A stretch of 64,000 nt of DNA from Sphingopyxis sp. OPL5 (GTDB lineage Bacteria; Pseudomonadota; Alphaproteobacteria; Sphingomonadales; Sphingomonadaceae), in the NCBI RefSeq assembly GCF_003797775.2, contig NZ_CP060725.1:310001-374000 (forward strand), read 5' to 3'. The notes below the pieces were generated by a model, which was not told the DNA's origin, searched no databases, and worked only from the letters and a program-made list of their open reading frames with translations. This document shows, piece by piece, positions 1,888 through 53,942 of the stretch. Both the position numbers and the translations under genes were made by a program. How positions within the stretch are numbered: position 1 is the stretch's first letter; each line of letters starts with the position of its first letter.

Positions 1888-1896
1888 GGACTATCC

Positions 1897-6079: not shown

Positions 6080-6468
6080 CCGCATTGACCCCCATCGCCC
6101 CCGGCCTGTGGACCGACGAGGCCGAACCCCGGCTGATCGGCGGGCGGCGCGCCAGTGGCGAGATCGTCTTTCCGGTTCCCGACGGCGACGCCGCGGCGCT
6201 GGTCGAACCGGTCGCGCTGGCGCGCCACGGCACGCTCTGGTCGTGGACCACGCAGGGTTTCGAACCCAAGCAACCCTATAGCGGCCCCCAGCCCTTCCAG
6301 CCCTTCCTCATCGGCTATGTCGAACTGCCCGGCGAGGTGATCGTCGAGACGCGGATCGTCGATGCGACGCCCGCCGACATGCGCATCGGCATGGCGATGG
6401 AATTCGCCGTCGTCGCCTTCGACGACAACCGTTCGACCTATGCCTTCAGGCCCCGGAGCACCGCATGA
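6076..6468 (+). CDS. OB-fold (DUF35-like) protein without zinc-ribbon cysteines
   Basis: 130 residues. The pattern LIGGRRASGEIVFPVP followed by a beta-rich second half (GTLWSWTTQGFEP, FLIGYVELPGE) fits the DUF35 OB-fold partner of thiolase-like enzymes. Standard members carry a four-cysteine zinc ribbon in the first half; this protein has no cysteine at all. It overlaps both neighbours by 4 nt, and the next gene is the thiolase-like protein, its expected binding partner. In steroid degraders such pairs (ChsH2 DUF35 domain with Ltp2) form a retro-aldolase; that role is inferred. Confidence 0.8.
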   Translation: MTALTPIAPGLWTDEAEPRLIGGRRASGEIVFPVPDGDAAALVEPVALARHGTLWSWTTQGFEPKQPYSGPQPFQPFLIGYVELPGEVIVETRIVDATPADMRIGMAMEFAVVAFDDNRSTYAFRPRSTA

Positions 6469-19606: not shown

Positions 19607-19616
19607 TGCGCGATCC

Positions 19617-20381: not shown

Positions 20382-20480
20382 CGCATCCTCCTCTTGTGAT
20401 TTTGAAGGAGAGAGTATCGCGGGGACCGACGGCGGGACATCAGCAAAAATGGGAGCGGCGGGTCATTCGCCTGCAAAAGA

Positions 20481-21569
20481 TTATCCGGCCGCTTCCTCTT
20501 CGACGAATCCCGGCCAGCGCCGCATATAATGGACGAATTCGTCGCTCAGCCCTTCACCGAGCAGGTGCGGCACCGACGCGGGCAGCGGCGGCGAGCGATA
20601 GGCCGGGTCGCGGCGGACGCGTTCGGGGAAGTCGTGGCGCAGGATCGCGGCGCGCCCGATGACGACGAAATCGCAACCGGCGTCGAGCATATCGCGCGCG
20701 TCTTCGGCGGTCATCACTTTGCCCGCGGCGCCAAGGCGAACGTCGCCGCGCGGCAATTCGGCGAAATAGCTCAGCAGCGAGCGCCCTTTCAGCCTGTCGT
20801 CCTCGGGCTCCTTGCGGGCGTCCCACAGCGACATGTCGAGATAATCGATCTTGCCTCCGGCCATGACCTCCACCGCCAGATCGCGGATTTCCTCGAGCAC
20901 CAGCCCGAAGCGTTCGGGCGACAGGCGCAGGCCGAGCTGGAAATCGGGCCGCGTCGCGGCGCGGATGCCGTCGACGATCTCGAACAGGATGCGCGCGCGG
21001 TTTTCCAGACTGCCGCCGTAGTCATCGCTGCGACTGTTCGACGCCGCCGACAGGAACTCCGCGAGGATATAGCCATGGGCGCCGTGAATCTCGACGCCGT
21101 CGAACCCCGCGCGGTCGGCCCGCACCGCGCCTGCGATAAAATCGTCGCGCAGCGCCGCGACCTCGGCCTCGGTCAGCGCGCGCACGCCGCGGTCGGGCAC
21201 TGCGGACGGCGCGACCGGCGCGCCCACCAGCGCCGTCTCGGCGCGGCTGCCGGCATGATGCAATTGCACCGACGAAAGCGAGCCCTTCGCCCGTATCGCG
21301 GTGGCCAGCGCGGTCAGTCCCGCCACATGCTCCTCGTCGAAAACGCCAAGCTGCCCGGTAAAGCCCTGCCCCACCGGCTGTACATGCGCCGCCGCCGTCA
21401 TCGTCAGCCCGAACCCGCCCGCGGCGCGCATCTCCAACCACTTATGTTCGGCGTCGGACAAGCGACCATCGGCATGGCTTTGCCGGTTGGTCAGCGGCGC
21501 GAGCATGAAACGGTTTTGTATCGCGGGACCGCGCGACAGCGACAGCGGTTCGAACAGCCGATCGGGCAA
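20481..21569 (-). CDS. NADH:flavin oxidoreductase, old yellow enzyme family
   Basis: About 362 residues. The FMN TIM-barrel signatures are FMLAPLTNRQS, then GFDGVEIHGAHGYILAEFLS, then the OYE motif SRSDDYGGSLENRAR. The end VIGRAAILRHDFPERVRRDP fits. No ATG precedes the conserved start; the TTG at 21569 is chosen because GGAAAGG lies 9 nt upstream and it follows the monooxygenase stop by 38 nt. The family reduces activated C=C bonds, and some members open or demethylate larger substrates. The TTG start could lower its expression. Confidence 0.85.
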   Translation of the reverse strand: MPDRLFEPLSLSRGPAIQNRFMLAPLTNRQSHADGRLSDAEHKWLEMRAAGGFGLTMTAAAHVQPVGQGFTGQLGVFDEEHVAGLTALATAIRAKGSLSSVQLHHAGSRAETALVGAPVAPSAVPDRGVRALTEAEVAALRDDFIAGAVRADRAGFDGVEIHGAHGYILAEFLSAASNSRSDDYGGSLENRARILFEIVDGIRAATRPDFQLGLRLSPERFGLVLEEIRDLAVEVMAGGKIDYLDMSLWDARKEPEDDRLKGRSLLSYFAELPRGDVRLGAAGKVMTAEDARDMLDAGCDFVVIGRAAILRHDFPERVRRDPAYRSPPLPASVPHLLGEGLSDEFVHYMRRWPGFVEEEAAG

Positions 21570-35790: not shown

Positions 35791-35973
35791 GATCGCATCT
35801 CCCATCGATTGCGACGGACCTAGCCGCAGCAACGCGCGGCTGGCGCGCTAGCGGGGCGGGATCGTGCGACTTTCCCAAATGTGATTGTCGAGGTGCGCCG
35901 GTCGCCGCGCTTCGCGCCGCTCGCGGTCTGGGCAATCGTCGCGGCAATCAAGGGATCGAAAGGGAGAGAGTTG

Positions 35974-37618
<1,645 letters not shown>

Positions 37619-37626
<8 letters not shown>

Positions 37627-38801: not shown

Positions 38802-38815
38802 TGTTATCGATGTCA
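38802..38815. promoter_or_regulatory. LacI-type operator 1 (TGNTATCGATNTCA)
   Basis: TGTTATCGATGTCA ends 15 nt before the esterase start at 38831. It matches three other sites in this locus (41713, 41779, 50679) and is a near-palindrome with a central CG, the usual shape of LacI-family operators. It would control the esterase and the regulator gene behind it, giving autoregulation. Confidence 0.75.
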
Positions 38816-38830
38816 TCGGAAGGATATTCG

Positions 38831-39736
38831 ATGCTCGATCCCGATATTGCCGCCTTCGCCGGTCCGCCGCAGGAGATGCCGGCGCTCACGCCCGAACTGG
38901 TTCCGCTGCTTCGCGCGAACATGGCGATGATGGCGGCGGCGATGCCGGGGGCCGCTATCGATCGGGTCGAGGATTTCGACGCCGACGGCGTTCCGGTTCG
39001 TCTCTACCGCCCCGCTTCCGACCGCCCCTTGCCGCTCCTCGTCTTTCTCCACGGCGGCGGCTGGATGTTCGGCGACCTCGATACGCATGACGCCATGACC
39101 CGTCACCTCGCCGCGGCGAGCGGCTGCGCGGTCCTCGGCGTCGGTTATCGCCTCGCGCCCGAGCATAAATTTCCGGCCGGGCTCGACGATGCGATGACCG
39201 CCTTCGACTGGGCGCGCCGATCGGCGGCGGACCTCGGCTGCGACCCGGTCCGCGTCGCGCTCGGCGGCGAAAGCGCCGGCGGCAACCTGACCGCCGCGGC
39301 GACCCTGCGGCTCCGCGACGAGGGCAAACCGCAACCGCTGTTCCAGCTGCTCATCCACCCCGCGACCGATATGAGCTTTTCCCTGCCATCGTTCGCCGAA
39401 GTCGCCGCACCGGGGCTGTCGAAACCCTATCTCGATGCGTGCCGCGAATATTATCTGGGCGATACGCCGGAATCCGATCCGCTCGTCTCGCCGCTGCTGG
39501 CCACCAACCATACGGGCCTCGCGCCCGCGATCGTCCTCACCGCGTCCGAAGACCCGCTGCGCGACGACGGCGAATATTATGCCGCGGCGCTGGTCCGGAG
39601 CGGGGTCGAAACGCTCGCCTGCCGCCTTCCCGGCCTGCCGCACGGCTTTCAGTTCCTCCCCATCACCATCGCGGCGGTCGCGGCCGCCAATGACTTGATC
39701 GGAGGGCTGGTCCGCCGCTACTTCGCCTGTAGATAG
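38831..39736 (+). CDS. HSL-type alpha/beta hydrolase (esterase)
   Basis: 301 residues of the hormone-sensitive-lipase family. The oxyanion motif HGGGW is at 74-78, the nucleophile Ser148 is in GGESAGG, an acid lies near TASEDPLRDD and the His in LPHGFQF. There is no signal peptide, so it is probably cytoplasmic. The start follows GGAAGGA. It heads a two-gene operon with the LacI regulator and has operator 1 just upstream. It should cleave carboxyl esters of the locus substrate. Confidence 0.92.
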   Translation: MLDPDIAAFAGPPQEMPALTPELVPLLRANMAMMAAAMPGAAIDRVEDFDADGVPVRLYRPASDRPLPLLVFLHGGGWMFGDLDTHDAMTRHLAAASGCAVLGVGYRLAPEHKFPAGLDDAMTAFDWARRSAADLGCDPVRVALGGESAGGNLTAAATLRLRDEGKPQPLFQLLIHPATDMSFSLPSFAEVAAPGLSKPYLDACREYYLGDTPESDPLVSPLLATNHTGLAPAIVLTASEDPLRDDGEYYAAALVRSGVETLACRLPGLPHGFQFLPITIAAVAAANDLIGGLVRRYFACR

Positions 39737-39763
39737 GGACCGGGTTTCAGGGGACGTGCAGCG

Positions 39764-40765
39764 ATGAGCAGAATCGGCAAGAGCGAACGACCGACCATGG
39801 AAAGGGTCGCGGCGCTGGCCGGTGTCTCCAAGATCACCGTGTCGCGCGCACTGCGCGGCAGCGACCTCGTCCGTCCCGAAGTGCGCGAACGCATCGCAGA
39901 GGTGGCGAAGCAGGTCGGCTATCGCATGAACGTCGCGGCGCGCAGCCTGCGGACGCGCGAAACGCGGACGATCGCGGTGGTGATCGACCATCGCGATCCC
40001 GACCACCAATCGCACACCGATCCGCTGATCCTCGCGATCATCGGCGGGCTGCTTGAGGCGCTGACCCCGGCGGGCTATTCGATCCTGCTGACGACGAACG
40101 AGCATTTCCTGTCGTCCAACGCGGTCGGCGCCGACGGCGCGGTCATGCTGGGTCAGGGCGAAGGCGCGCAGCGGGTGACCGAGGTTGCCGCGATGAACCT
40201 GCCGATCGTCGCCTGGGGCGAACCGGTGCCGGGGGTCGGCATCAAGGTGGTGGGCAGCGACAACCGCATGGGCGGCAAGCTCGCCGCCGAGCATCTCGTC
40301 GCGCACGGCGCTACGCGCCTGCTGTTCCTCGGCGACATGCAGCATCCCGAGATCGCCGCCCGCCTCGAAGGCTTTCGCGAGGCGCTGGCGGCCAGCGAGG
40401 CGCGGCTGGTCGGTGCGCTGCCCTGCCCCTTCACCCCCGAAGGCGCGGCCGATGTCGTCCGCCGCGCGCTCGACGACGGCACGGCGTTCGACGCCATTTT
40501 CGCCGCGAGCGACTTCATCGCCGCCGGCGCGTGCGACGCGCTGCTGGCGCATGGCACGACGGTGCCGGGCGACGTCGCGATCGTCGGGTTCGACGATGCG
40601 CCGATCGCCAGCGTCCACCGCCCGTCGATCAGTTCGATCCGGCAGGACGGCGCCGCCGCGGGCCGCACCCTCGGCGCGGCGATCGTCGCGCTGATCGAGG
40701 GAAATACGAGCACGACCGCGCATGCGCTTCCCGTCGAACTCGTCGCGCGCGAAACGAGCCGCTGA
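39764..40765 (+). CDS. LacI-family transcriptional regulator of the acyl-sugar locus
   Basis: 333 residues. The N-terminal DNA-binding domain (MERVAALAGVSKITVSRALR at about 12-31) is followed by a hinge and a periplasmic-binding-protein-like sensor domain with TIAVVIDHRDPDH, a GSDNRMGGKLAAEHLV segment and VAIVGFDDAPIAS. LacI proteins usually bind a sugar or sugar-derived inducer. Four matching palindromes flank the transcription units here, one in front of its own operon. It ends 4 nt from the convergent esterase stop. The inducer may be trehalose or an acylated derivative, which is inference. Confidence 0.93.
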   Translation: MSRIGKSERPTMERVAALAGVSKITVSRALRGSDLVRPEVRERIAEVAKQVGYRMNVAARSLRTRETRTIAVVIDHRDPDHQSHTDPLILAIIGGLLEALTPAGYSILLTTNEHFLSSNAVGADGAVMLGQGEGAQRVTEVAAMNLPIVAWGEPVPGVGIKVVGSDNRMGGKLAAEHLVAHGATRLLFLGDMQHPEIAARLEGFREALAASEARLVGALPCPFTPEGAADVVRRALDDGTAFDAIFAASDFIAAGACDALLAHGTTVPGDVAIVGFDDAPIASVHRPSISSIRQDGAAAGRTLGAAIVALIEGNTSTTAHALPVELVARETSR

Positions 40766-40769
40766 CGTC

Positions 40770-41699
40770 TCAGCCGAGATATTTGCGGAAGAAGCCGGCG
40801 ACGATCTTATAGGTCTCGACCGATTCGGGCAGGTCGACGTCCATATGATGCGCGTGCCACAGCCCGTCGAACAGGACGAAGCTCGCCTCGACACCCGCCG
40901 CGAGCAGGCGGCGGTGCATCACCGACACCGCGCTCGCGGCAAAATCGCGCGTCGCCGAGATCAGCAGGCTCGGCGGGAAATGCGCGAGCAGTTCGGGGTG
41001 CCCGGCCGCCAGCACCAGCGGATCAGAAAGGTCGGCGCCCGAGAAATATGGCAGGTCTTCGATCTTCGGGGTCGCACCCGAGCGGACGCGCGGATCGAAT
41101 AAGGCCTGCGCCAGCGCCGCATCGCCCGCAAAGGGGACCGGCGCGCCATGGAACAGCCCGATGGCGCCGGGCGGCGGCAGGCCCTGATGAAGACAATGCG
41201 CCACCGCCTGCGTCGTCAGCACCGCGCCCGCCGAACAGCCGTAGATGCCGATGCTCGCCGGATCTACCGTTTCGGTCACCGCGCGATAGACCGCGACGAT
41301 ATCGTCGACCGCGGCGGGATAGATATGGTCGGGCGCCAGGCGGTAATCGATCGCGAGCACGCGCATGCCGGCGACCGCTGCGATCGGCACCGCCTCAAGC
41401 AGCGCCCCCGGCCCTTCGCCCCACATGAACGCGCCGCCGTGCAGGCAGAGCAGCACCGGCGATCCGGAGGCGCCGCCCGACGGCACGACGTCATAAACCT
41501 TCACCCCGGCGATCTCGCGCTCGGCAATATCGACGGCATATCTGGCCGTCGCCTTGTCGAGCAGGCGCTGGTTGTAGGCGGCAAAATAGGGACGCGCTTC
41601 CGACAGGTCCGCCGGAGTCGCGGATTCGGTCAGGAAAGCGGCAAACCGCGCTTTCGCTTCCGTGCTGACCCACGGGCCGAATTGCTCGATATCGCTCAT
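40770..41699 (-). CDS. HSL-type alpha/beta hydrolase (esterase)
   Basis: 309 residues. The oxyanion motif is LHGGAFMWG, the nucleophile Ser156 is in GCSAGA and the C-terminal His in LWHAHHMD. No signal peptide is seen. It shares the GIYGxSAGAVLT pattern with the esterases at 44165 and 48400, so these three are paralogs. Operator 2 lies 13 nt before its start, and operator 3 serves the divergent TonB gene in the same gap. Confidence 0.9.
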   Translation of the reverse strand: MSDIEQFGPWVSTEAKARFAAFLTESATPADLSEARPYFAAYNQRLLDKATARYAVDIAEREIAGVKVYDVVPSGGASGSPVLLCLHGGAFMWGEGPGALLEAVPIAAVAGMRVLAIDYRLAPDHIYPAAVDDIVAVYRAVTETVDPASIGIYGCSAGAVLTTQAVAHCLHQGLPPPGAIGLFHGAPVPFAGDAALAQALFDPRVRSGATPKIEDLPYFSGADLSDPLVLAAGHPELLAHFPPSLLISATRDFAASAVSVMHRRLLAAGVEASFVLFDGLWHAHHMDVDLPESVETYKIVAGFFRKYLG

Positions 41700-41712
41700 G
41701 ACATCCCCATCC

Positions 41713-41726
41713 TGCTATCGATATCA
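41713..41726. promoter_or_regulatory. LacI-type operator 2
   Basis: TGCTATCGATATCA matches the shared 14-bp consensus. It lies 13 nt upstream of the minus-strand esterase start and 137 nt from the TonB receptor start. A repressor bound here and at operator 3, centred 66 nt away, could loop the divergent promoter. Confidence 0.75.
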
Positions 41727-41778
41727 GTTATCGACTTGCCCTATTGATAGCGCCCCGGCGGCTTGAAGCAAGAGCTAT

Positions 41779-41792
41779 TGACATCGATATCA
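41779..41792. promoter_or_regulatory. LacI-type operator 3, overlapping a possible -35
   Basis: TGACATCGATATCA is one base short of a perfect palindrome. It overlaps the plus-strand hexamer TTGACA (41778-41783), which could be the -35 of the TonB receptor promoter, although the base run 17 nt on (CATCCG) is a poor -10. It is 59 nt before the receptor start. Overlap of operator and -35 would fit simple repression. Confidence 0.78.
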
Positions 41793-41850
41793 TTTTCCTT
41801 CATCCGCTGTCTCGACCGGATGAATCCGGCTATCCTTTGGGAGGGAAGAG

Positions 41851-44160
41851 ATGATGTCGATGCGTTCCGCCTTTCTTGTCGCACTGGCTTGCAGCGCCAG
41901 CTTGCTGCCCGCCGCCGCGTTCGCGCAGGCCGATGCGGCGCCCGCCGACCAGCCGGACACGTCGGCCGAAGACGGTCGCGGCCTCAATGACATCATCGTC
42001 ACCGCGCGGCGCCGCGAAGAAAAGCTGCAGGACGTGCCGATCGCCGTCACCGCCTTTACCGACGAGGCGCTTGAGCAAAAAGGGGTCACCGACCGCACCT
42101 CGCTCGCCGACAACACGCCTTCGCTGTTCACGATCAGCGGCGGCTACCCGCGCGAGTTCGCCTATTTTGCGCTGCGCGGCCAGGGGCCGGCGTTCGGCTC
42201 GACCCCCGGCGTGGTCAATTATTTCGCCGAGGTCCCGAACAGCGTCAACGTCGACGGCCGCGTCGGCACCTATTTCGACCTCGCCAACATCCAGGTGCTC
42301 GCGGGGCCGCAGGGTACGTTGTTCGGCAAGAATGCGACCGGCGGCAACATATTGTTCGAACCGGTCAAGCCGAAGGACGAGTTCGAGGGTTATGTCCGCA
42401 TCCAGCTCGGCAATTATGACGACCGCCGGATCGAGGGCGCGCTCAACACGCCGATCGTCCCCGACCGCGTGCTGCTGCGCATCGCGGGCGAGGTCGGCCG
42501 CCGCGACGGCTATACCAAGGACGTCGGCCCGTTCTTCGCGGGCAAGGATTATGACAATCTCGCCTATGAAAGCTTCCGCTTCGGGCTGACCCTGCGCCCG
42601 ACCGACAATGTCGAACTTTATACGATGCTGCGCTATTATCACTCGGACAACAATGGCGGCGGCACCGTGCTCGGCGCGTACAACCCGGCGGCGGGTTTCG
42701 ACGCCACGCCGCTGGGGCTGGGCTTCCTGCCGGTGGCGGCCTTCTATCCAGGCGTGCTGACCGCGGTCGCCGAACAGCAGGCGCGCGGCCCGCGCCGCGT
42801 CTCCTATGACCTCGACCAATTCTCGGAGACGAAATATTGGCAGGTCATCAACCAGGCGTCGGTCCAGCTGACCGACAACATCAAGCTGCGCAACATCGTC
42901 AGCTATTCGGAGCTGCGCACGATCTACGGCTATGATTATGACGCGATGCCCTTCCCGATCGCCGGGCAGCGCGGGCGCATCCCGACCGTCGCACCCAATT
43001 TCTTCACCGAGGAACTGCAGCTGCAGGGCACTTTGTTCGACGACGCGGTCGATTTCTCGGTCGGCGGCTATCTCGACCGCCAGAGCTGGAGCGATCCCGC
43101 GGGGATCGAACAATATACTTTCTTCCCCATCGGCACCCTGCTTCCGACGATCTCGGGCTTCTTCACCCAGACGAACAAGAGCGAGGCGGTCTTCGGGCAG
43201 GCGACCGTCGACCTCGGCAAATTGTCCCCTGCGCTGACCGGGCTCAGTGTCACCGGTGGCCTCCGCTACACCTGGGAACATAGCTTCACCTCGCAGACGA
43301 TCGGCGGTCCGCCCGCGGTCTCGGGCTCGGTCGACAGCGATTATCCGAGCTACACCGCGACCCTCGACTATGATGTGACACCCGGCGTCCATGTCTATGT
43401 CACCGCGCGCGACGCGTATAAGTCGGGCGGCGTCAACGGCCCGGTGCCGATCGGGTCGGCATTCCGCACCTATGCACCCGAACGCCTCTCCGACATCGAG
43501 GTCGGGCTGAAATCGCAATTCTCGCTCGGCGACGTCGACGTTCGCGCCAATGTCGCTGCCTATCGCGGCATCTACGACAATATCCAGCGCACCACCGCGG
43601 AAGCGGTGCAGACGCCCGCGGGCACCGTGCTGCTCAACGTCACCCGCAGCGCGGCGAAGGGCAAGATCCAGGGGATCGAGCTGAACCTCGCGGTCATGCC
43701 GGTGCAGGGGCTGACGCTCAACGGCAGCTATTCCTACATCGACGCGCGCTACACCGAAGTGGCGGATGCGAGCGCGGGGGCCATCTTGAACGGCGCGCCC
43801 TTCCCTTACACCCCCAAGCATAAATTCTCGGTCGGCGGCTCGTACGAGACCTCGCTCGGCAGCGTGGGCGACCTGGTGCTCGCGGCCAATTATGTGCGTC
43901 AGACCAAGGTTTCGACCGCGCAGACCAACAGCAGCTTCTATAATTTCCTTCCCGCCTATGGCCTGCTCAACGGCAGCATCGGACTGAAGGACGTCGGCGG
44001 GCGGCCGATCGACTTCACATTCTTCGTCAACAACCTGACCAACGAGGCGAAGCCGGTCGGGGTGCTCGACCAATATGCCCAGTCGTCGGGCATGGTAGGG
44101 CTGACCTATAGCGAGCCGCGGATGTACGGGGTGCGGATCGGCTATCGGTTCGGGAACTGA
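41851..44160 (+). CDS. TonB-dependent receptor of the acyl-sugar locus
   Basis: 769 residues. A signal peptide is at about 1-26 (ending AAAFAQ), a TonB-box-like LNDIIVTARRREEKLQDVP follows, the plug motif is IQVLAGPQGTLFGKNATGG, and the barrel ends MYGVRIGYRFGN. GGAGGGAAGAG precedes the start. It heads an operon with an esterase, trehalase and CoA ligase and is preceded by operator 3. It should carry a large ligand, for example a glycolipid or its headgroup, across the outer membrane. Confidence 0.95.
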   Translation: MMSMRSAFLVALACSASLLPAAAFAQADAAPADQPDTSAEDGRGLNDIIVTARRREEKLQDVPIAVTAFTDEALEQKGVTDRTSLADNTPSLFTISGGYPREFAYFALRGQGPAFGSTPGVVNYFAEVPNSVNVDGRVGTYFDLANIQVLAGPQGTLFGKNATGGNILFEPVKPKDEFEGYVRIQLGNYDDRRIEGALNTPIVPDRVLLRIAGEVGRRDGYTKDVGPFFAGKDYDNLAYESFRFGLTLRPTDNVELYTMLRYYHSDNNGGGTVLGAYNPAAGFDATPLGLGFLPVAAFYPGVLTAVAEQQARGPRRVSYDLDQFSETKYWQVINQASVQLTDNIKLRNIVSYSELRTIYGYDYDAMPFPIAGQRGRIPTVAPNFFTEELQLQGTLFDDAVDFSVGGYLDRQSWSDPAGIEQYTFFPIGTLLPTISGFFTQTNKSEAVFGQATVDLGKLSPALTGLSVTGGLRYTWEHSFTSQTIGGPPAVSGSVDSDYPSYTATLDYDVTPGVHVYVTARDAYKSGGVNGPVPIGSAFRTYAPERLSDIEVGLKSQFSLGDVDVRANVAAYRGIYDNIQRTTAEAVQTPAGTVLLNVTRSAAKGKIQGIELNLAVMPVQGLTLNGSYSYIDARYTEVADASAGAILNGAPFPYTPKHKFSVGGSYETSLGSVGDLVLAANYVRQTKVSTAQTNSSFYNFLPAYGLLNGSIGLKDVGGRPIDFTFFVNNLTNEAKPVGVLDQYAQSSGMVGLTYSEPRMYGVRIGYRFGN

Positions 44161-44164
44161 TCCG

Positions 44165-45121
44165 ATGGCAGACCGCCCCGTGCAACCACCCTTCGCGCCG
44201 ACCGTCAGCGAAGAAGCGCGCGCCGCCATGGCGCCGTTGCTGGCGGCCGGCTCGGCACCCGAGATGACCGCGACGCTGATGCGCAACACGATCACGCGCA
44301 AGGCGGTCCGCGCCGCCGCCGCCAATCATCTGAGGCCGCTGAACAAGAGCCGCGCCAGGCGCTTCGACGTCGCGGTGAGCAAGGACAAGATCGCGGGCGT
44401 GCCGGTCAAGCTCGTCCGGCGCCGGGCAAGCGAAGCGGCCGCGGACCAGCGGCTGCTGATCAACTTCCACGGCGGCGGCTTCATGGTCGATTCGGGGTCG
44501 GAGACCGAGACGATCCCGATCGCCGGGCTGACCGGGATATCGGTCGTCACGGTGATGTACCGCATGGCGCCCGAACACCCCTTCCCCGCCGCGGTCGACG
44601 ATGCGCTGGCGGTCTACACCGATGCTCTCTCGCAGCGACCGGCGACCGCGATCGGCATTTACGGCACCTCCGCCGGCGCCGTTCTGACGGGACAGCTTCT
44701 GGCACGGATCAAGGCCGAAGGCCTGCCGATGCCCGCAGCGGCGGGCGTCTTTTCCGGCTCGGCGGACCTCGCGCTGGTCAGCGATTGCGAAGCCTTTCTG
44801 CCGTCGATCATGGGCGCACGGACCGCGCCCGACACATTGGCCGACTATAGCGCCGGGACCGAGCGCACCGACCCGCTGCTGTCGCCGCTCTATGGCGACC
44901 TGTCCGGCCTGCCGCCGACGCTGCTGATGACCAGCACCCGCGACCAGTTGCTCAGCCAGACCGTGCGCTTCCATCTGGCGCTGCGCAAGGCCGGGGTCGA
45001 TGCCGACCTGATGGTCTATGAGGGCATGCTCCATGCCTTCTGGGCTTATATGGAATGCCCGGAAACCGAAGACGCGCTCGCGGCGCAGGCCGCCTTTTTC
45101 AGCCGCCACCTGGCCCGCTGA
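44165..45121 (+). CDS. HSL-type alpha/beta hydrolase (cytoplasmic esterase)
   Basis: 318 residues. The oxyanion motif is FHGGGFMVDSGS, nucleophile Ser169 is in GTSAGA, the acid is in STRDQLL and the His in MLHAFWAYM. It is strongly similar to the signal-peptide-bearing esterase at 48400 (shared SGSxTETIPIA and HAFWAYM), but has no signal peptide. It begins 4 nt after the TonB receptor stop, so the two are translated from one mRNA. A cytoplasmic twin of a secreted esterase suggests stepwise deacylation in two compartments. Confidence 0.92.
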   Translation: MADRPVQPPFAPTVSEEARAAMAPLLAAGSAPEMTATLMRNTITRKAVRAAAANHLRPLNKSRARRFDVAVSKDKIAGVPVKLVRRRASEAAADQRLLINFHGGGFMVDSGSETETIPIAGLTGISVVTVMYRMAPEHPFPAAVDDALAVYTDALSQRPATAIGIYGTSAGAVLTGQLLARIKAEGLPMPAAAGVFSGSADLALVSDCEAFLPSIMGARTAPDTLADYSAGTERTDPLLSPLYGDLSGLPPTLLMTSTRDQLLSQTVRFHLALRKAGVDADLMVYEGMLHAFWAYMECPETEDALAAQAAFFSRHLAR

Positions 45122-45139
45122 GCCTTGACCCGATCACCC

Positions 45140-46633
45140 ATGCGCCCCGACCCCAGTCCCGCCGACCTGTTCGGCCCGCTCCTCGCCAAGGTACAGGAGC
45201 GCGCGATCCTGCCCGACGGCAAGACCTTCGTCGACGCGCTGCCGAAGCGCCCGGTCGCCGAGATCATGCGCGACTTCGCCGGCCTGCCCGCTGGCGACGA
45301 CGCGCTGCGCGCCTTTATCGCGGACAATTTCGATCTGCCCGCGACCACCGAAACCGCAGGACGCACGGCCTCCGCCCAGCCCGTCCGCGCGCGGATCGGC
45401 GCGATGTGGAAAGAACTGGCGCGCGCACCCGATGACCTTGTTACAGGCGGGTCGGCACTGCCCGTCCAGCACCGGCACGTCGTACCGGGCGGACGCTTCC
45501 GCGAAATCTATTATTGGGACAGCTTCTTTACCATGCTCGGCCTCGTCCGCGACGGCGAGCTCGAACTCGCCAACGGCATCGTCGACGCGATGACCGACCT
45601 GATCGAGGCGCATGGCCATGTCCCCAACGGGACGCGGACCTATTATCTCGGCCGGTCGCAGCCGCCGCTGTTTCACATGATGGTCGAATTGCTCGACGAC
45701 CGCCGTCCCGATGTCGCCGCGCGGCGATTGTCGGCGATGAAGCGCGAACATGGCTGGTGGATGGCTGGCACCGACGAACTGGCGCCCGGTCGGTGCGCGG
45801 CGCGCGGCGCGCGGCTGGCGGACGGGCGGCTGCTCAACCGCTATTGGGATCCGCGCGACACACCGCGCGACGAAAGCTGGCGCGAAGATGTCGCGACCGC
45901 CGCAAAAAGCGGCCGCCCTGCCGGAGAGGTCTACCGCGACCTGCGCGCCGGGGCCGAAAGCGGCTGGGATTTCTCGTCGCGCTGGCTGGGCGACGGCACG
46001 CTCGCGTCGATCCGGACGACGGCGATCGCCCCGGTCGACCTCAACGCCTTTCTGTTCGGTCTCGAAACCGCGATCGCCGCGAGCCCGGACGCCGAGGCCG
46101 GTCGCTACGCCCGACTGGCGGAGCAGCGGCGCGACGCGATGAACCGCCACTTGTGGGACGCCGAGGGCGGCTATTTCGCCGACCATGACATCGACAGCGG
46201 CGCATTGCGCACGCCGCTCACCGCCGCCGCGCTCGCCCCGCTCGCCGTCGGTGCCGCGACGCAGGAGCAAGCCGACAGCACCGCCCGCGTGGTCGCAAGC
46301 CACCTTGTCGCGCCCGGCGGCCTGCGCACGACGCTCGTCGAGACCGGCGAGCAATGGGACCGCCCGAACGGCTGGGCGCCGCTGCAATGGATCGGCGTCG
46401 CGGGTCTGAAACGCTATGGCCATGACGCGCTGGCACGCGACATCGCCAGCCGCTGGGTCGACACGGTCGGCGCGACCTTCGCCCGCACCGGCTTACTGTT
46501 CGAGAAATATGACATCGAAGCGGCCACCGTCGGCGGCGGCGGCGAATATGAGGCGCAGATCGGTTTTGGCTGGACGAACGGCGTCACAGCCGATTTTATC
46601 GACGGCTACGCGCTCCTGCCCTCCGGCAAGTGA
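45140..46633 (+). CDS. GH37 trehalase, cytoplasmic type
   Basis: About 497 residues matching glycoside hydrolase family 37. Signature one PGGRFREIYYWDSFF begins near residue 116 and signature two is QWDRPNGWAPLQW. The general acid corresponds to Asp277 in SGWDFSSRW and the base to Glu469 in GGGGEYEAQ. It hydrolyses alpha,alpha-trehalose to two glucose. No signal peptide is present, so it acts inside the cell (TreF-like). A TTG at 45125 is an alternative start; ATG 45140 is chosen because the family start (SPADLFGPLLAKVQ) follows. It lies between an esterase and a CoA ligase in a LacI-controlled operon. Confidence 0.93.
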   Translation: MRPDPSPADLFGPLLAKVQERAILPDGKTFVDALPKRPVAEIMRDFAGLPAGDDALRAFIADNFDLPATTETAGRTASAQPVRARIGAMWKELARAPDDLVTGGSALPVQHRHVVPGGRFREIYYWDSFFTMLGLVRDGELELANGIVDAMTDLIEAHGHVPNGTRTYYLGRSQPPLFHMMVELLDDRRPDVAARRLSAMKREHGWWMAGTDELAPGRCAARGARLADGRLLNRYWDPRDTPRDESWREDVATAAKSGRPAGEVYRDLRAGAESGWDFSSRWLGDGTLASIRTTAIAPVDLNAFLFGLETAIAASPDAEAGRYARLAEQRRDAMNRHLWDAEGGYFADHDIDSGALRTPLTAAALAPLAVGAATQEQADSTARVVASHLVAPGGLRTTLVETGEQWDRPNGWAPLQWIGVAGLKRYGHDALARDIASRWVDTVGATFARTGLLFEKYDIEAATVGGGGEYEAQIGFGWTNGVTADFIDGYALLPSGK

Positions 46634-46650
46634 CGCACTGCGGGAGAGAA

Positions 46651-48240
46651 ATGACGATGCTGCCCGGCCTGATGCAGGATGCCCCGCTGCAGATCAGCGC
46701 GATCCTGACCCACGCCGCCCGCGCCCACGGCGCGCGCGCGATCGTCTCAAAGTGCGTCGACGAACCCCTGTGGCGCTACGACTGGGCCGGCTGCGAGCGG
46801 CGGTCTCGGCAGGCGGCACAGATGCTCGGCACGCTCGGCATCGCCGGGGGCGACCGCGTCTCGTCGCTGGCGTGGAACACCCACCGGCACCTCGAGCTTT
46901 TCTATGCCGTCCCCGGCATCGGCGCGGTGCTCCATACGGCGAATCCGCGGCTCAGCGACGAGCAGATCGCCTTCACGATCAACCATGCGGGCAGCCGCAT
47001 CCTCTTTTTCGAGGCAAACCTCGCCGACCTCGTCGAGCGGCTGAAACCGCTGCTTCCCGCCATCGAACATTTCGTCCTGCTGGGCGATCCATATGAAAAT
47101 CTGATCGCCGCCGAGGATGGCGAATTCGACTGGCCGCGCTTCGACGAAAAGGCCGCGGCCTTTCTCTGCTACACCTCGGGCACCACCGGCGATCCCAAGG
47201 GCGTGCTCTACAGCCATCGCTCGATCGTGTTGCACGCGATGGCGGCGGGGCTGAGCAGCGCCTTCGGGTTCAGCGCCTTCGACACGATCATGCCCTGCTC
47301 TTCGATGTATCACGCGACCGCCTGGGGCCTGCCCTTCGCCGCCGCGATCAATGGCTGCAAGCTCGTGCTGCCGTGCGACCGGATGGACGGCGCCAGCCTC
47401 GCCGAACTGATCGCCGACGAGGGCGTGACCTTCTCGGGCGGCGTCCCGACGATCTGGACGATGTATCTCGCGCATCTTGAGGCCAGCGGCCAGGGCGTCG
47501 GCGATTTGAAGCGCCTCGTCATCGGCGGATCGGCGGTACCGCGCGCGATGGCCGAGACCTTCCGCGAAACATATGGCGTCACCGTGCTCCAGATCTGGGG
47601 CATGACCGAGACCAACCCGCTCGGCGTGATTTCGACCCCGACCCCGCTGCTGGCAGCCGAGGGCGAGGACTATGCGACCGAGACGATCCTGACGCGGCAG
47701 GGCCGGATGCAGTTCGGCATCGAACTGCGCATCATCGACGACGACGGCGCGCCGCTGCCGTGGGACGGCGAGCAGGCCGGCGCGTTGCAGGTGCGCGGGC
47801 CGTGGGTCGTCGATCGCTATTATCCCGACTTACCCGCCGCCCATGCCGACGGCTGGTTCGACACCGGCGATATCGGCACGATCGACCGCTTCGGCTTCCT
47901 GCGCCTGACCGACCGCGCCAAGGACGTCATCAAATCGGGCGGCGAATGGATCAGTTCGATCGACCTGGAGAATGCCGCGGTCGGCTGTCCCGGCGTCCGC
48001 ATCGCCGCGGTCATCGGCGTGCATCATCCGAAGTGGGAGGAACGACCGTTGCTCGTCATCGAGCCGCACGACGGTGAGCGGGTCACCGCCGCGCAAATCC
48101 GCACCCATCTCGAAAGCCGCGTCGTGCGCTGGTGGATGCCCGACGATATCCTGTTCGACACCGTCCCGCTCACCGCGACGGGCAAGATCGACAAAAAGAC
48201 GCTGCGCGACCGCTACCGCGACCATCTGGCGAAGGGCTGA
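46651..48240 (+). CDS. Acyl-CoA synthetase of the acyl-sugar locus
   Basis: 529 residues, ANL superfamily. The P-loop is [19 protein letters not shown], followed by [28 protein letters not shown] and the Lys region [15 protein letters not shown] at 46651 follows GGGAGAGAA; an upstream GTG overlapping the trehalase stop is less likely. It is a close paralog of the ligase at 35974. As the last gene of the operon it would activate the fatty or short-chain acid released by the esterases. Confidence 0.92.
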
Positions 48241-48259
48241 TCGCGGCCTCCAATTTGCC

Positions 48260-48348
48260 GTCACCCCGGGCTTGACCCGGGGCCTGCCTTGTCTTCGATC
48301 GACGGCGACGGAAGGAAGGCGGGTCCCGGGTCAAGCCCGGAATGACGA
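48260..48348. repeat. Inverted repeat (CCCGGGCTTGACCCGGG family)
   Basis: Left arm GTCACCCCGGGCTTGACCCG and right arm CGGGTCAAGCCCGGAATGAC are near-complementary, with a ~50-nt centre. It sits between the convergent ligase and esterase genes. This is another intergenic element of a type frequent in alphaproteobacteria and may act as terminator for both sides. Confidence 0.75.
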
Positions 48349-48399
48349 CGGGACATGAGGCTACGCCCGCGTCCCACCCCAAAGCCGCCGCCCCGCGCG

Positions 48400-49416
48400 C
48401 TATTTCGCGCCCGCCAGCCTATCCTTCAAAAACCGCGCAACCAGCTCGTTCGCCTGATCGCTCTCGGGCGCCGCCATATAGGCCCAGAAGGCGTGCGGCA
48501 GCCCGTCGAACACCACCAGCCGCGCGTCGACGCCCTTTTCGGTCAGCGCCCGCGCGAAGATCGCTGTCGGGCTCAGCAAGAAATCGCGCGAACTGGTGAG
48601 CAACAGCGTCGGCGGAAATTTCGACACGTCGCCGCGGATCGGCGACAGGATCGGGTCGGTCATCGCCGTCTTGCCCGCATAGGCCGCGACCCAGTCGAAG
48701 CCCGGGCCCGGCATCCAGCTTTCGGAATCGCCGCGCACCCCCAGGTCCGCGCTGCCCGAGAGAAAGCCGAGCGCCGCCGGCATCGGCCGGCCGCTGCTCG
48801 CGAGCTTCGCGACGAGTTGCCCCGACAGGACCGCGCCCGCCGACGTCCCGAACACCGCGATTTGCTTCGCGCCCCGCTCCTTCTCAAGCGCCTGATACAC
48901 CGCTAGCGCATCGTCGAGCGCTGCCGGATAGGGGTTCTCGGGCGCCAGCCGATAGAGCACCGCGACCACCGGCAGGCCCGTGCGCGCGGCAATCGGGATC
49001 GTCTCGGTCAGTGATCCCGAATCGATCGCGAAACCGCCGCCGTGCAGGTTGAGCAGCACCGGCCCCTTGCCGAGCGCGCTCACTCCCTTGGGATAGATAA
49101 TGCGCACCCGCACCCCGGCGATCGTCGCTTCCTCGACCCTTACCTCGTACCGCTTCTGAAGCGCGGCCCCCATGCTCGCCTGCATCGCACCGATGAAGGC
49201 GCGGATGTCGGGGAGCGGCGGCAGCGGATCGGGCATCGCCTGCGCCGCCGCGGCGGCGGCCGCCGCCTTGCCTTCGGGGCTCAATGTGTCGGGCAGCGGC
49301 CAGTTCTGCAGGCCCAGCGTCGGCAGAGCGGCGGGCGCGACCTGCGCGGCGACGGGAGTCGGCATCGCGCTGGTCAACAGTGCGGCGAGAAGGATCGTTA
49401 TGCGGCGCTTCATCAT
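48400..49416 (-). CDS. HSL-type esterase with signal peptide
   Basis: 338 residues. A Sec signal peptide covers about 1-25 (ITILLAALLTSAM, cleavage near PVAAQ). The catalytic part has LHGGGFAIDSGSLTETIPIA, the nucleophile elbow GTSAGA and the His in LPHAFWAYM. It is the exported paralog of the esterase at 44165. The start overlaps the MFS transporter stop by 4 nt, so it is in one operon behind operator 4. Likely role: periplasmic removal of acyl groups before inner-membrane transport. Confidence 0.92.
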   Translation of the reverse strand: MMKRRITILLAALLTSAMPTPVAAQVAPAALPTLGLQNWPLPDTLSPEGKAAAAAAAAQAMPDPLPPLPDIRAFIGAMQASMGAALQKRYEVRVEEATIAGVRVRIIYPKGVSALGKGPVLLNLHGGGFAIDSGSLTETIPIAARTGLPVVAVLYRLAPENPYPAALDDALAVYQALEKERGAKQIAVFGTSAGAVLSGQLVAKLASSGRPMPAALGFLSGSADLGVRGDSESWMPGPGFDWVAAYAGKTAMTDPILSPIRGDVSKFPPTLLLTSSRDFLLSPTAIFARALTEKGVDARLVVFDGLPHAFWAYMAAPESDQANELVARFLKDRLAGAK

Positions 49417-50642
49417 TCGGCTCCCGATACGGACATGGCGTCCTGATTGGGGTGGGTGTCGGTGGCGCTGCGCCGCGGCCAGGCGCAGAGCGCGCCGAGC
49501 AGCGCGAGCACCGACATGGCCAGATAGGCGACCGCCAGACCCTGGTTCCACAGCAGCCCCGACCCGACCATCGCGACCGCGAGAACCGCGCCGAGCAGGA
49601 CCGCGTTCATCCCCTGTGCGGTGGCGGTAAGATGGCTGGGTACCCGGCGCGCGATCACCAGCATGATCCCGAGGATCGTCCCGGTCGCGGTGATGCCGTT
49701 GAGAAGCTGCCCCACGACCAGAACCGGCAGGCCGGGACTCGTCGCCATGATCGCCCAGCGCAGCGCGCCGGCAATCGCCCCCGCCACGATCAGCAGACGC
49801 GGGTCGCGGTTGCCGAGCAGCTTCGCGCCGAACCAGAAGGCCCCGATCTCCGCCGCGACCGCCAGCGCTTGCAACAGGCCGATCACCGTGGTCGAAATGC
49901 CCTGCGCTTCCCACTGAATCGCGCCGAAGCTCGTCAGAACGCCGTGGCTGCCCATGATCAGCGACGCCGCGACCATCGCGAGAATCAGGCCCCCGTCGCC
50001 GAACAGGTCGCGCCAGCGGCCGCCGACCGCCGCATCGACGGCGGTCAGCTTGCGGTCCGCGGGCAGCAGGACCGCGACGATCGCCGGAGCGATCAGCAGT
50101 GTCGCGACCATCAACGGCAACATCTTAAGGCCGAACATACTGATCGCCCAGCCGGCGGCGGCGTTCGACACCACCACCGCGATCGATCCCCAGACGCGCA
50201 ATCGCCCGAAATCGAGCGACCGGCTGCGCACCGCCATCACCGCATAGGCGTCGGTGAGGACCGGAATCTGGTCCCACATGATCGAAAAGATGATGACGAT
50301 GCCGATACGCCCGGCATGATCGGGCTCGCCGAGCAGCAACAGGATGATCGCGGCCGAGGCGAGCGAGGTATAAGCGATCGCATTGCGCACCCATCCGCGC
50401 CGCCCGACGAAGGCCGCAAAGGGCGCGACGGTCAGCAGCCGCAGGATCATCGGGATCGCGAGCAGCACGCCGATTTCCTCGGCCGAGGCACCGGTGGATT
50501 TCAGCCACAGCGGCAGGAAGGCGAAAAAGCCATAATGGACATAGAGCGCGAGATAGAGGCCCGACACGCCGAACCCGAGCCGGCCCGGATCAGCGCCGCC
50601 GGAAACCGTTCGCGGCGACGCGCTGCCCTGTGTCGAATCCAT
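49413..50642 (-). CDS. MFS transporter, HcaT/nucleoside-symporter-like
   Basis: 409 residues with about 12 membrane segments. The start region FGVSGLYLALYVHYGFFAFLPL and the pattern LRLLTVAPFAAFVGRRGW resemble the MFS_1-like group (HcaT, LacY-related). The last residues (RRSATDTHPNQDAM) are a hydrophilic tail. It is first in the operon with the exported esterase. Operator 4 lies 36 nt upstream. It probably imports the deacylated sugar or a partly acylated form. Confidence 0.9.
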   Translation of the reverse strand: MDSTQGSASPRTVSGGADPGRLGFGVSGLYLALYVHYGFFAFLPLWLKSTGASAEEIGVLLAIPMILRLLTVAPFAAFVGRRGWVRNAIAYTSLASAAIILLLLGEPDHAGRIGIVIIFSIMWDQIPVLTDAYAVMAVRSRSLDFGRLRVWGSIAVVVSNAAAGWAISMFGLKMLPLMVATLLIAPAIVAVLLPADRKLTAVDAAVGGRWRDLFGDGGLILAMVAASLIMGSHGVLTSFGAIQWEAQGISTTVIGLLQALAVAAEIGAFWFGAKLLGNRDPRLLIVAGAIAGALRWAIMATSPGLPVLVVGQLLNGITATGTILGIMLVIARRVPSHLTATAQGMNAVLLGAVLAVAMVGSGLLWNQGLAVAYLAMSVLALLGALCAWPRRSATDTHPNQDAMSVSGAE

Positions 50643-50678: not shown

Positions 50679-50692
50679 TGATATCGATGTCA
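50679..50692. promoter_or_regulatory. LacI-type operator 4
   Basis: TGATATCGATGTCA, one mismatch from a perfect palindrome, fits the 14-bp consensus of the other three sites. It is 36 nt upstream of the MFS transporter start and marks the outer edge of the LacI-controlled locus. Confidence 0.75.
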
Positions 50693-51490: not shown

Positions 51491-51711
51491 GCTTTCCTCC
51501 GGCGTTGTTTGCTGAACTCCCGATCACTGCCGATGAACCGTCCCACCATCGGCGCGATTAATTTTTCGGGCGCGAGCGGGGTGGCCAACCCGTTCAATCT
51601 TGCGTGGATGGCCGCATAGTCCGCAAGATCGCGCACGAGGGATCCTGGCAGCTCGACAGTCAGCTTGACCGGCCGCTCCTCGACGACCGGACCGAGGCGC
51701 AGCTTGCTCAT
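51487..51711 (-). CDS. DUF2274 family protein
   Basis: 74 residues: KLRLGPVVEERPVKLTVELP then LVRDLADYAAIHARLNG fits DUF2274, a small protein regularly found directly after trbI in trb-type conjugative elements of proteobacteria. It has a ribbon-helix-helix-like look but no proven function. It overlaps trbI by 4 nt on one side and the AlpA gene by 4 nt on the other. Confidence 0.85.
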   Translation of the reverse strand: MSKLRLGPVVEERPVKLTVELPGSLVRDLADYAAIHARLNGLATPLAPEKLIAPMVGRFIGSDREFSKQRRRKA

Positions 51712-52931
51712 CGCCGGCTCCTCGCCAGCGGTTCCTCGAGAATAAGATCTCGGGTCACGATCACTCGCAAGGAGAAGCCCGGCCGCACTGTGAGCGTCGG
51801 CGGAACGGAAAGTTCGCGTTCGACTATCCGACGCCCGGCCTCGTTCGTGCTGTCCTGCCAACCCGAGCGTAGTGCCCGGACGAGTTCATCGCCGTCCGCG
51901 GCAAGCTCCGTGCCGATCCCAAGGAACGATGACACCAACGCTGCCCGAAGCATCCGGCCCCAGTGATTGTTCACCCGGTCCTCGGCACCGGCCAAACCCG
52001 AGGCGTCGCCCGCGGGCTGGCGATCGAGCCGGATCGACCCCCCGCCCGGAAGAATGAGACGATCCCATGCAAGCAGGACGCGGCGCTGGCCGGCTGCGAC
52101 GTCGCTGTCATACTCGCCGACAAGCCGCGCACCTTGTGGAATGAGGAGCAGCCGCCCAGTCGGGCTATCATAAACATTCTGCGTGACCTGCGCGGTAATC
52201 TGGCCGGGGAGGTCGGACCGGATTCCCGTGATCAGAGCGGCGGGGATAACCGTGCCAGCCTGAACCACGGCCGCCGAACTCGGCGCGACGATCCGCTCGG
52301 AGCTTTCGAACGCGCGCTGCGGCCCGCCGGCGAGAAAGGCTTTGCGCGCCGCCGTAGGCGTACCCGCCTCCTTGGCTGGATCTGCGGCTGCCGGCTGGCC
52401 ATCGAGAATTTCGGGCGCGGCGGCCACTGCGCTGCCGCCGCCCAGAAACAGGCGGCTTCCCTCGGCCGCCTCGCGCTCCTGCAGTGCGCGCTGCCTCGCC
52501 TGCTCCCGCGCGATTTGCCGGGGATCAGGCGTTGGCGGCCCCATCGCCGGGACGGGAACAGGCTCGCCCGCCTTTTGCGCCGACACAATCGGCCGACCGA
52601 GGTCCCCGGGGAGCGGCGGCCCGAGCTTGGGGACGGCGCCATAGTCTGCGGGCGCCCCGGTCACGGCCTCGGACCGGTTCGGCGACGTAACCTCGTAGAG
52701 CTCCTGCGCCGCCTTCGGATCGACCGGGCGCAGCGCCCAGAGAAGCGCGCCGCCGATTGCGATCCCGGCGGTGCCGCCGAGCACCGCAAGCGTCTTGCGC
52801 GAAAGGCGCATGACGCGAGGCAGTTCGCCCTCAAGACGAAAACCGTCGGGGCTCGCAGGCGCTACCACTGCCGCGTCAGGTGCCATTTCAGCGGTCGGAG
52901 CCTCGCCTTCGGCGTCCTCGGGCCGGCTCAC
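51708..52931 (-). CDS. trbI: Conjugal transfer protein TrbI (VirB10 family)
   Basis: 407 residues, full length. A cytoplasmic Pro-rich tail is followed by one membrane segment at about 45-66 (TLAVLGGTAGIAIGGALLWA), a long Pro/Ala-rich periplasmic linker, and the C-terminal VirB10 domain (VIPAALITGIRSDLPGQITA, LLIPQGARLVGEYDSDV, NHWGRMLRAALVSSFLG). In intact elements it links inner and outer membrane parts of the mating channel. Here the other channel genes (trbB to trbF) are absent, so it is probably no longer functional. Confidence 0.93.
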   Translation of the reverse strand: MSRPEDAEGEAPTAEMAPDAAVVAPASPDGFRLEGELPRVMRLSRKTLAVLGGTAGIAIGGALLWALRPVDPKAAQELYEVTSPNRSEAVTGAPADYGAVPKLGPPLPGDLGRPIVSAQKAGEPVPVPAMGPPTPDPRQIAREQARQRALQEREAAEGSRLFLGGGSAVAAAPEILDGQPAAADPAKEAGTPTAARKAFLAGGPQRAFESSERIVAPSSAAVVQAGTVIPAALITGIRSDLPGQITAQVTQNVYDSPTGRLLLIPQGARLVGEYDSDVAAGQRRVLLAWDRLILPGGGSIRLDRQPAGDASGLAGAEDRVNNHWGRMLRAALVSSFLGIGTELAADGDELVRALRSGWQDSTNEAGRRIVERELSVPPTLTVRPGFSLRVIVTRDLILEEPLARSRR

Positions 52932-53524
52932 GGGCGTACCCGCGCAGCCGACGCATCGCGAACGATACGGACCTTCTTCGCCGCCTTTCCGGCGCCCAAG
53001 CGAAGCTCGCCGCGAACGAACAACCGGTCGACGATCATGAAGCGGCCGTCGACACGGTAGTTCAGAAGCTCGGCCACGCCCTTCTCGCCGACCGCAAAGA
53101 GCGGCGGCATCTCGCCGGTCGCGATCGAAGGGCTGAACTCAACAAAGAGCTGTCGGCCGTCGTCGAACGCGCGCACCGGGCGCCATGGCGCCTTGTCGCC
53201 GCTGATCCGGTAGGCGAAGTTAAGCGACGGCAGATTGATCCCGCTGGCGGCGGGCGCGGCCCTCACACGCTCGGCTTCGGCCGCGCGAAGCGCGATCAGC
53301 TCGTCCTGCGGATAGCGCCACGAGACTGCGGCCATATAGGTCGAAGGCGTCGCGCGCAGTTCAATGTGGTAAGTTCGGCGGCTCGTGTTGATGACGGGCT
53401 CGCTTTCCTTCATCTTGCGGCCGTTCGGGACGATTGCGATCGGCACGGTGACCATCAGGGTCGCGAGCGTGCCTTCATAGCTGCCGTCGTCCTTGAGGGT
53501 CAGATTTCCGATGGTGGTACCCAT
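52928..53524 (-). pseudogene. DUF736::TrbG in-frame fusion remnant
   Basis: 198 residues in one open frame with two unlike parts. Residues 1-~43 (MGTTIGNLTLKDDGSYEGTL, then a segment ending KESEP) look like the start of a DUF736 protein. From ~44 (VINTSRRTYHIEL) to the end it is the C-terminal half of TrbG/VirB9 (SWRYPQDELIALR, FAYRISGDKAPWRPVRAFDD). TrbG is normally ~300 residues with a signal peptide; both are lost. The start follows AAGGAG. A deletion joining the two genes of one conjugative element explains this. It overlaps trbI by 4 nt. Confidence 0.75.
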
Positions 53525-53543
53525 GTCCAGTCTCCTTTGATGC

Positions 53544-53560
53544 TCGGGGACCATCCCCGA
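53544..53560. promoter_or_regulatory. Hairpin in the leader of the DUF736::TrbG gene
   Basis: Arms TCGGGGA and TCCCCGA flank a 3-nt loop, 20-36 nt before the fusion gene start. It is probably the inherited DUF736 leader. The remaining stretch 53561-53942 holds no gene I can support; short frames there have random-looking Arg/Pro-rich products. Confidence 0.4.
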
Positions 53561-53942
53561 TGGCGCCAGAAGGAGGGGCCGTGAGCCGCCGTCACCGAGC
53601 GCATGCGAGGGCGAACCCCCGCAGGGGGTTGACGGCATTAGGCGAGCCGAGCCCCGCAATCAGGCAGCCAATGAGGGAAAGGTCCCATGCAACGGGAGCC
53701 GAGGGGTCACAGCGGAACTCATGACTCCGGATGCGAAAGCCGGGGCTCACGGCTGCCCGGCCCACCCCGCTCCACGCCCCGTCCCCGCTTCCCGGCGCAA
53801 TGCCCCGCACCTTCGATCTGCCGCACCGCCGGCTCGTATCTCCGCCCCGCGGCAAACCCCCGGCACCCTCGCTTTCCGGCTTTTCATCCACAGCGATGAT
53901 ACCGCTTCGCCGCAGCGCGCCTTGACGAAGAGCAGGCAATGA

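Follow-up and report, generated by a model that had tools for sequence, protein, structure and literature searches.

A candidate locus for the use of acylated trehalose in Sphingopyxis sp. OPL5, predicted to be under a single LacI-family repressor

Introduction

Why would a trehalase gene lie among the genes of four esterases and an acid-activating ligase? The question is raised by nine genes at positions 38831–50642 of a 64,000-nucleotide stretch from Sphingopyxis sp. OPL5 (NZ_CP060725.1, positions 310,001–374,000, here called the window), which is part of a one-contig genome of 4.68 Mb with a completeness of 100%. An earlier note had proposed that these genes capture an acylated trehalose, remove its acyl groups, split the sugar to glucose and activate the released acid. 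The parts of that proposal that sequence can address held: the gene set and its putative operators as a regulon, recurrence in other genomes, the linkage of esterases to trehalases, the predicted enzyme locations (linked trehalases are mostly unexported), the presence of acid-CoA enzymes and the trehalase motifs. The set is a real, recurrent unit, predicted to be under a single repressor, and we consider it rather probable that it is a carbohydrate utilization locus with a TonB-dependent transporter (CUT locus) for acylated trehalose, a substrate deduced from gene content. New here are the operators, the recurrence in three gene orders, the esterase-trehalase linkage, the trend in trehalase location and the recruitment of acid-CoA enzymes.

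Results

Gene content

Pfam and NCBIfam profiles found every part of the earlier gene list: four Abhydrolase_3/HSL (hormone-sensitive lipase family) proteins (104–215 bits; Pfam cut-off 25), a LacI regulator, a TonB plug protein, a trehalase of glycoside hydrolase family 37 (GH37), an AMP-binding ligase and an MFS_1_like transporter. The order is HSL1 and LacI (+), HSL2 (−), receptor, HSL3, trehalase and ligase (+), and HSL4 and MFS (−). The features are listed below; genes were assigned by Pfam/NCBIfam, with a start check for the four esterases, the trehalase, the ligase and the MFS transporter and motifs for the trehalase, and operators, given without strand, by pattern search.

38802–38815, predicted operator TGTTATCGATGTCA, before HSL1-lacI, 15 nt upstream of the HSL1 ATG
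38831–39736, +, HSL1, HSL-family esterase, HGGG and GESAG motifs, without signal peptide
39764–40765, +, LacI-family repressor
40770–41699, −, HSL2, HSL-family esterase, GCSAG motif, without signal peptide
41713–41726, predicted operator TGCTATCGATATCA, before HSL2
41779–41792, predicted operator TGACATCGATATCA, before the receptor operon, overlapping a −35-like TTGACA
41851–44160, +, TonB-dependent outer-membrane receptor with signal peptide
44165–45121, +, HSL3, HSL-family esterase, GTSAG motif, without signal peptide
45125–46633, +, GH37 trehalase without signal peptide, predicted cytoplasmic; start TTG 45125 or ATG 45140
46630–48240, +, acyl-CoA ligase (AMP-forming); start 46630 or 46657
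48400–49416, −, HSL4, HSL-family esterase, GTSAG motif, with signal peptide, predicted periplasmic
49413–50642, −, MFS inner-membrane transporter (MFS_1_like)
50679–50692, predicted operator TGATATCGATGTCA, before MFS-HSL4

The start of HSL1 at ATG 38831, as first proposed, was confirmed by the start check; a longer open reading frame (ORF) from 38735 would run through an operator. When the window proteins were judged by eye, signal peptides in the set were confined to the receptor and HSL4 (MMKRRITILLAALLTSAMPTPVAAQ); the trehalase has none, as the earlier note had said, and neither have HSL1, HSL2 and HSL3. No RNA families or tRNAs were found in the window.

Operators

A LacI-type palindrome, TGNYATCGATRNCA, which first came out of a comparison of sister-locus promoter regions, precedes each of the four transcription units. 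The pattern TGNYATCGRTRNCA matched the window at 38802, 41713, 41779 and 50679, on both strands at each site (8 matches, against 0.03 expected from shuffling), and these were its only both-strand matches across the 4.68 Mb genome; two one-strand matches lie elsewhere, and a looser pattern, TGNNATCGATNNCA, gave three further palindromes in the genome. The site is present in 14 of 16 other loci of the same trehalase clade, the exceptions being L012, with a LacI of 38% identity, and L006, a 3.5 kb contig limited to HSL3, trehalase and ligase. Among the remaining 108 fetched loci outside the OPL5 genome it occurs in one (L119), on one strand only. The two operators of the divergent pair start 65–67 bp apart in all 11 loci in which both match, the window included. 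Because the −35-like TTGACA at 41778–41783 overlaps the receptor-operon operator, the repressor is likely to act there by occluding the promoter. The set is thus predicted to form a single-repressor regulon, LacI binding at four sites, and the earlier description of it as LacI-controlled is now backed by a putative operator for each transcription unit. The repressor scored 59.6 bits against TreR (TIGR02405; cut-off 357.35), and its identification as a trehalose-specific LacI was rejected on this score.

Recurrence in sister loci

The same gene set, which the earlier note had suggested looking for in other sphingomonads, was found there in three orders. L002, L004 and L005 (Sphingopyxis and another Sphingomonadales; 61–93% protein identity) carry the full set in the order of the window, as does L082 by profile, and L003, L006 and L007 carry it in part, their contigs ending inside the set. 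In L009–L011 the set is rearranged, with MFS and HSL4 upstream of HSL1 (in L008 only MFS was found there), and in L014, L015, L018 and L084 MFS and HSL4 are placed after the trehalase. Two of these loci come from strains with collection numbers: L004 from Sphingopyxis panaciterrae DSM 27164 and L015 from Sphingobium fuliginis DSM 18781, the latter having a further, stand-alone trehalase (L037). Within the genus of the window, a strong trehalase match was present in 4 of 20 sampled genomes, each time with the esterase linkage.

Some of these loci show signs of exchange or decay. The L009 receptor (5113–7422) is 92% identical to that of the window, the other L009 set genes being 49–73% identical, and it seems to have been exchanged alone. 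In L008 a transposase-like ORF (11785–12801; IS110-like, by eye) follows the trehalase, in the place that the ligase takes elsewhere. L125 (8665–9372) holds overlapping fragments of a trehalase (66%) and an L010-type ligase (76%), what is left of a set that has decayed in genome G342.

Linkage of esterases to trehalases

Trehalase relatives were sampled as the best 80 of at least 533 confirmed, a sample that leans to close relatives, and an order census gave 43 places with E ≤ 1e-130 in 39 of 397 genomes, from which we retrieved 42 places (the one omitted is that of the window) plus two partial ones, leaving aside 11 weak rows. Of the resulting 123 trehalase rows 114 are different, some genomes being seen twice; the L007 trehalase start is cut by a contig end, and L109 is broken. 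The HSL profiles used to seek esterases derive from the window and its own relatives, and we set their cut-offs ourselves. An HSL esterase lay within 5 kb of the trehalase in 26 of the 123 loci, and the other 97 gave 0 HSL hits by that profile in 1,945 kb. Counted within the order census only, the linkage holds for 9 of 43 strong trehalase places. As a yardstick, PF07859 has 17 matches in the 4.68 Mb genome apart from those of the set, which would place a match in an estimated ~4% of random 11.5 kb stretches; the linkage seen, 21%, is well above this chance estimate.

The linkage label changes six times on the trehalase tree (L124 and L125, as fragments, and L001 were left out), compared with a mean of 23.9 after shuffling, and well-supported branches force five of the six changes; these counts do not tell gains from losses. 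Because the label changes this often, the esterase-trehalase link probably arose more than once. A pair test on the tree had only two independent pairs, which puts significance out of reach.

A second type of locus (L076, L088 and L100) combines a trehalase without signal peptide with a receptor, a LacI, two HSL proteins and a GH1 enzyme. An MFS gene lies just before the trehalase in L088, and a similar one in L076 (by eye). The receptors of this type are ~33–36% identical. L005, a locus of the first type, has at 302–3297, directly left of the set, a GH1 enzyme and another esterase-like ORF, as GH1 stands in the second-type loci. Among plasmid records, 79 had a trehalase match, the best places all below 60% identity.

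Trehalase location, carriers and acid-CoA enzymes

Signal peptides across the loci were counted by a crude fixed rule (earlier tree labels had been set by eye). By this rule the signal peptide was absent from 18 of 24 readable esterase-linked trehalases, the window not being counted, versus 11 of 97 stand-alone ones; by eye, several of these 11 have a weak signal peptide or a lipobox. In L036, a Brevundimonas locus with an exported linked trehalase, the next gene encodes a GluP glucose/galactose transporter (246.8 bits; cut-off 202.55). This single case is what one would expect if a trehalase in the cytoplasm depends on a carrier for the disaccharide, and a trehalase in the periplasm on one for glucose. 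NCBIfam gave no match for the MFS genes of L085 and L088.

Leaving the window out, 13 of 25 esterase-linked loci had an AMP ligase within 6 kb, versus 2 of 97 others. The window-type ligase is kept in seven other loci (L002–L007 and L082; 89–92%); L009/L010, L014/L015 and L036/L080 have other AMP ligases, 26–35% identical to that of the window and to each other. A CoA-transferase is common to L014, L015, L018 and L084 (best model, for L015, butyryl-CoA:acetate CoA-transferase, below its cut-off), and L014 and L015 also have a thiolase. With four non-orthologous AMP ligase groups and a CoA-transferase across the loci, acid-CoA enzymes have been recruited repeatedly. The best-matching models range from short- to long-chain acids and hint only weakly at acyl length.

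Assignments of the enzymes, carrier and receptor

The genome has a single PF01204 match, the trehalase, which scored 447.8 bits against the GH37 profile (cut-off 21). The enzyme aligned to E. coli TreA (2jf4) with 474 bits, and the catalytic PGGRF, GWD, QWDxPxGWAP and EKYD motifs are intact. It passed the cut-off of the TreF model (PRK13270; 542 vs 512 bits) and missed those of two TreA models (562.9 vs 941 and 519.4 vs 560 bits). The genome has one glucokinase (PF02685). OtsA, TreY and TreS had no match in the genome, and since these three are unmatched, turnover of home-made trehalose is unlikely; we regard recycling of this kind as weakened, other synthesis routes not having been searched.

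All four esterases have a catalytic serine motif: GESAG in HSL1, GCSAG in HSL2 and GTSAG in HSL3 and HSL4. PF07859 has 21 matches in the genome, 4 of them within the 12 kb of the set, which also holds four of the eight strong ones (at least 100 bits), and this clustering exceeds chance. HSL4 passed the cut-off of the GTSAG subfamily model NF058649 (437.5 bits; cut-off 380) and HSL3 fell just under it (373.8); the best NCBIfam matches of HSL1 and HSL2 were other HSL models, with scores under those cut-offs. Esterases of the HSL family usually prefer short to medium chains. The acyl groups are therefore probably short- to medium-chain, and esters of the rhodococcal or Tsukamurella type fit better than mycolates.

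The nearest NCBIfam model of the ligase was PRK07008 (3-(methylthio)propionyl-CoA ligase), under whose cut-off of 822 it remained with 673.4 bits; we assign no acid to it, and its nearest solved chain is 6ihk, which we take to be DmdB. The MFS protein scored 174.7 bits against PRK11128 (3-phenylpropionate transporter; cut-off 259). Named substrates for the ligase and the carrier were rejected on these scores. Transporter and receptor had only weak matches to solved structures, those of the receptor being of siderophore or pesticin type.

Neighboring genes

The window to the left of the set (1–37626) is a large catabolic run of aromatic or steroid type, with a molybdopterin oxidoreductase, a P450, Rieske oxygenases, a flavin monooxygenase and an FAD dehydrogenase, as well as thiolase, SMP-30, IclR, acyl-CoA dehydrogenase and ligase genes. 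Directly to the right, 51708–53659 holds TrbI- and CagX-type conjugation genes, followed by ImuB-like and DnaE-like genes. We tested 30 flank proteins (25 left, 5 right) on 16 sister loci, covering up to ~10 kb of flank. L009 has, ~7 kb beyond its trehalase, the short-chain dehydrogenase (SDR, 99%), glutathione transferase (GST, 92%) and E1 (92%) genes of the left region; in the other 15 no flank gene was found at 51% identity or more within that distance. Hits of 48–50% to the window's other ligase (35881–37626) were the set's own ligase. Because flank genes were found in one sister locus only, we conclude that the set mostly travels without the left catabolic region. The L009 segment (18566–20955) corresponds to window 17985–20381 and lies on the other side of the set; this part of the left region seems to move between Sphingopyxis strains.

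Discussion

The set can be read as a pathway. Without substrate, LacI would sit on the four operators and keep all four units off, its own included. When an acyl-trehalose is present, the receptor would take it across the outer membrane, HSL4 would strip acyl groups in the periplasm, and the MFS carrier would import trehalose or a partly acylated form. HSL1–3 would then complete deacylation in the cytoplasm, the trehalase would yield two glucoses for glucokinase, and the ligase would convert the freed acid to its CoA ester. The transport steps, the inducer and repressor binding are modeled on the predicted functions, and trehalose as the sugar used in vivo, its acyl groups and a mycobacterial or rhodococcal source are likewise putative.

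Several observations weigh against this pathway. None of the parts closely resembles a protein whose specificity for acyl-trehalose is known, and ligase, carrier and LacI all score under the NCBIfam cut-offs of named substrates. The ligase is the least conserved part, swapped or missing in several sister loci, and AMP ligases are common in general. Six esterase-linked trehalases have a signal peptide, and linkage among signal-peptide trehalases (6 of 103) is not far above the chance estimate; in five of these six (L036, L080, L087, L090 and L095) the esterase is directly beside the trehalase on the same strand, which argues against chance. The gene that follows the trehalase in L080, a locus closely related to L036, does not resemble a carrier. 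Where GH1 genes occur (five second-type loci and the vicinity of L005), the substrate may be a larger or different glycoside, and the left-region genes of L009 also count against the pathway.

We consider it unlikely that this is a plain trehalose locus whose four esterases and ligase serve other esters of the same habitat: trehalase, LacI, receptor and transporter alone would suffice for trehalose, and 97 of 123 sampled trehalases have no esterase nearby, but the predicted regulon takes in all four esterases, and trehalases of several lineages have an esterase as a neighbor. An ester of another sugar or glycoside, such as a plant acyl sugar, with the GH37 enzyme acting on a different alpha-glucoside, would account for the GH1 genes, for a GH95 gene beside L012 and for the divergence of the second-type receptors; the intact trehalase motifs, the 474-bit match to TreA and the TreF score make it improbable, and to our knowledge trehalase is the only activity of GH37.

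A role in defense, by breakdown of toxic or membrane-active trehalose glycolipids from neighboring actinobacteria, would give four esterases of three motif classes a use against varied acyl patterns, and trehalose lipids are described as biosurfactants in the available text of PMC4365757. Use as carbon would better explain an import receptor, a CoA enzyme and a trehalase that lacks a signal peptide, and we hold defense to be very unlikely. Least probable of all is that the set belongs to the left catabolic region and contains its trehalase by chance. Its immediate neighbors do encode an acyl-CoA dehydrogenase and a ligase, P450, Rieske and other genes follow at a greater distance to the left, and the L009 genes leave the case not clean; in the 15 other sister loci no gene of that region reached 51% identity within the up to ~10 kb of flank covered, and the operators are confined to the trehalase set. 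We judged a link to these genes unlikely.

Use of an acylated trehalose is therefore the reading that we retain. According to the available text of PMC4365757, natural trehalose esters include some with chains of C7–C18, tetraesters, succinic tetraesters, mixed C16–18/C2–6 diesters and mycolic esters. Several actinobacterial genera produce trehalose esters, which find use as biosurfactants. A wider and quite doubtful extension, which we offer tentatively, is that a family of dedicated systems enables Gram-negative sphingomonads and Brevundimonas to live on trehalose glycolipids of actinobacteria (medium-chain, succinoyl or mixed short/long esters), the GH1 versions perhaps on beta-glucosylated, lipooligosaccharide-like trehalose. 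Such systems would have come together several times, with other esterases, acid-CoA enzymes and carriers in each case, and the location of the trehalase would suit the carrier. A search of the open-licence PMC literature found no paper on an acylated-trehalose utilization locus. The set is a testable candidate for such use, carried by collection strains, and a sensor might be made from its repressor and the four predicted operators.

Some of the parts have known relatives. The esterases share the family profile and the HGGG/HGGA and GxSAG motifs with PMGL2 and MGS-MT1, HSL esterases of solved structure, and differ from them in forming four paralogues of three motif classes in one predicted regulon. 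The trehalase resembles E. coli TreA and TreF in sequence family, motifs and TreF score, and unlike them sits inside an esterase regulon. CUT loci, as the available text of PMC1790865 (Blanvillain et al. 2007) describes them, include the Xanthomonas sux locus for sucrose, whose receptor is induced by the carbohydrate and required for its use, and a putative maltose locus partly shared with Caulobacter. In the wording of that text, the window has the adjoining receptor (41851–44160), degradative enzyme (the GH37 trehalase), inner-membrane transporter (MFS, 49413–50642) and sugar-type regulator (LacI, with conserved palindromes) of proteobacterial CUT loci. Unlike the loci described there, it adds four esterases and an acid-CoA ligase, and its sugar enzyme is a trehalase.

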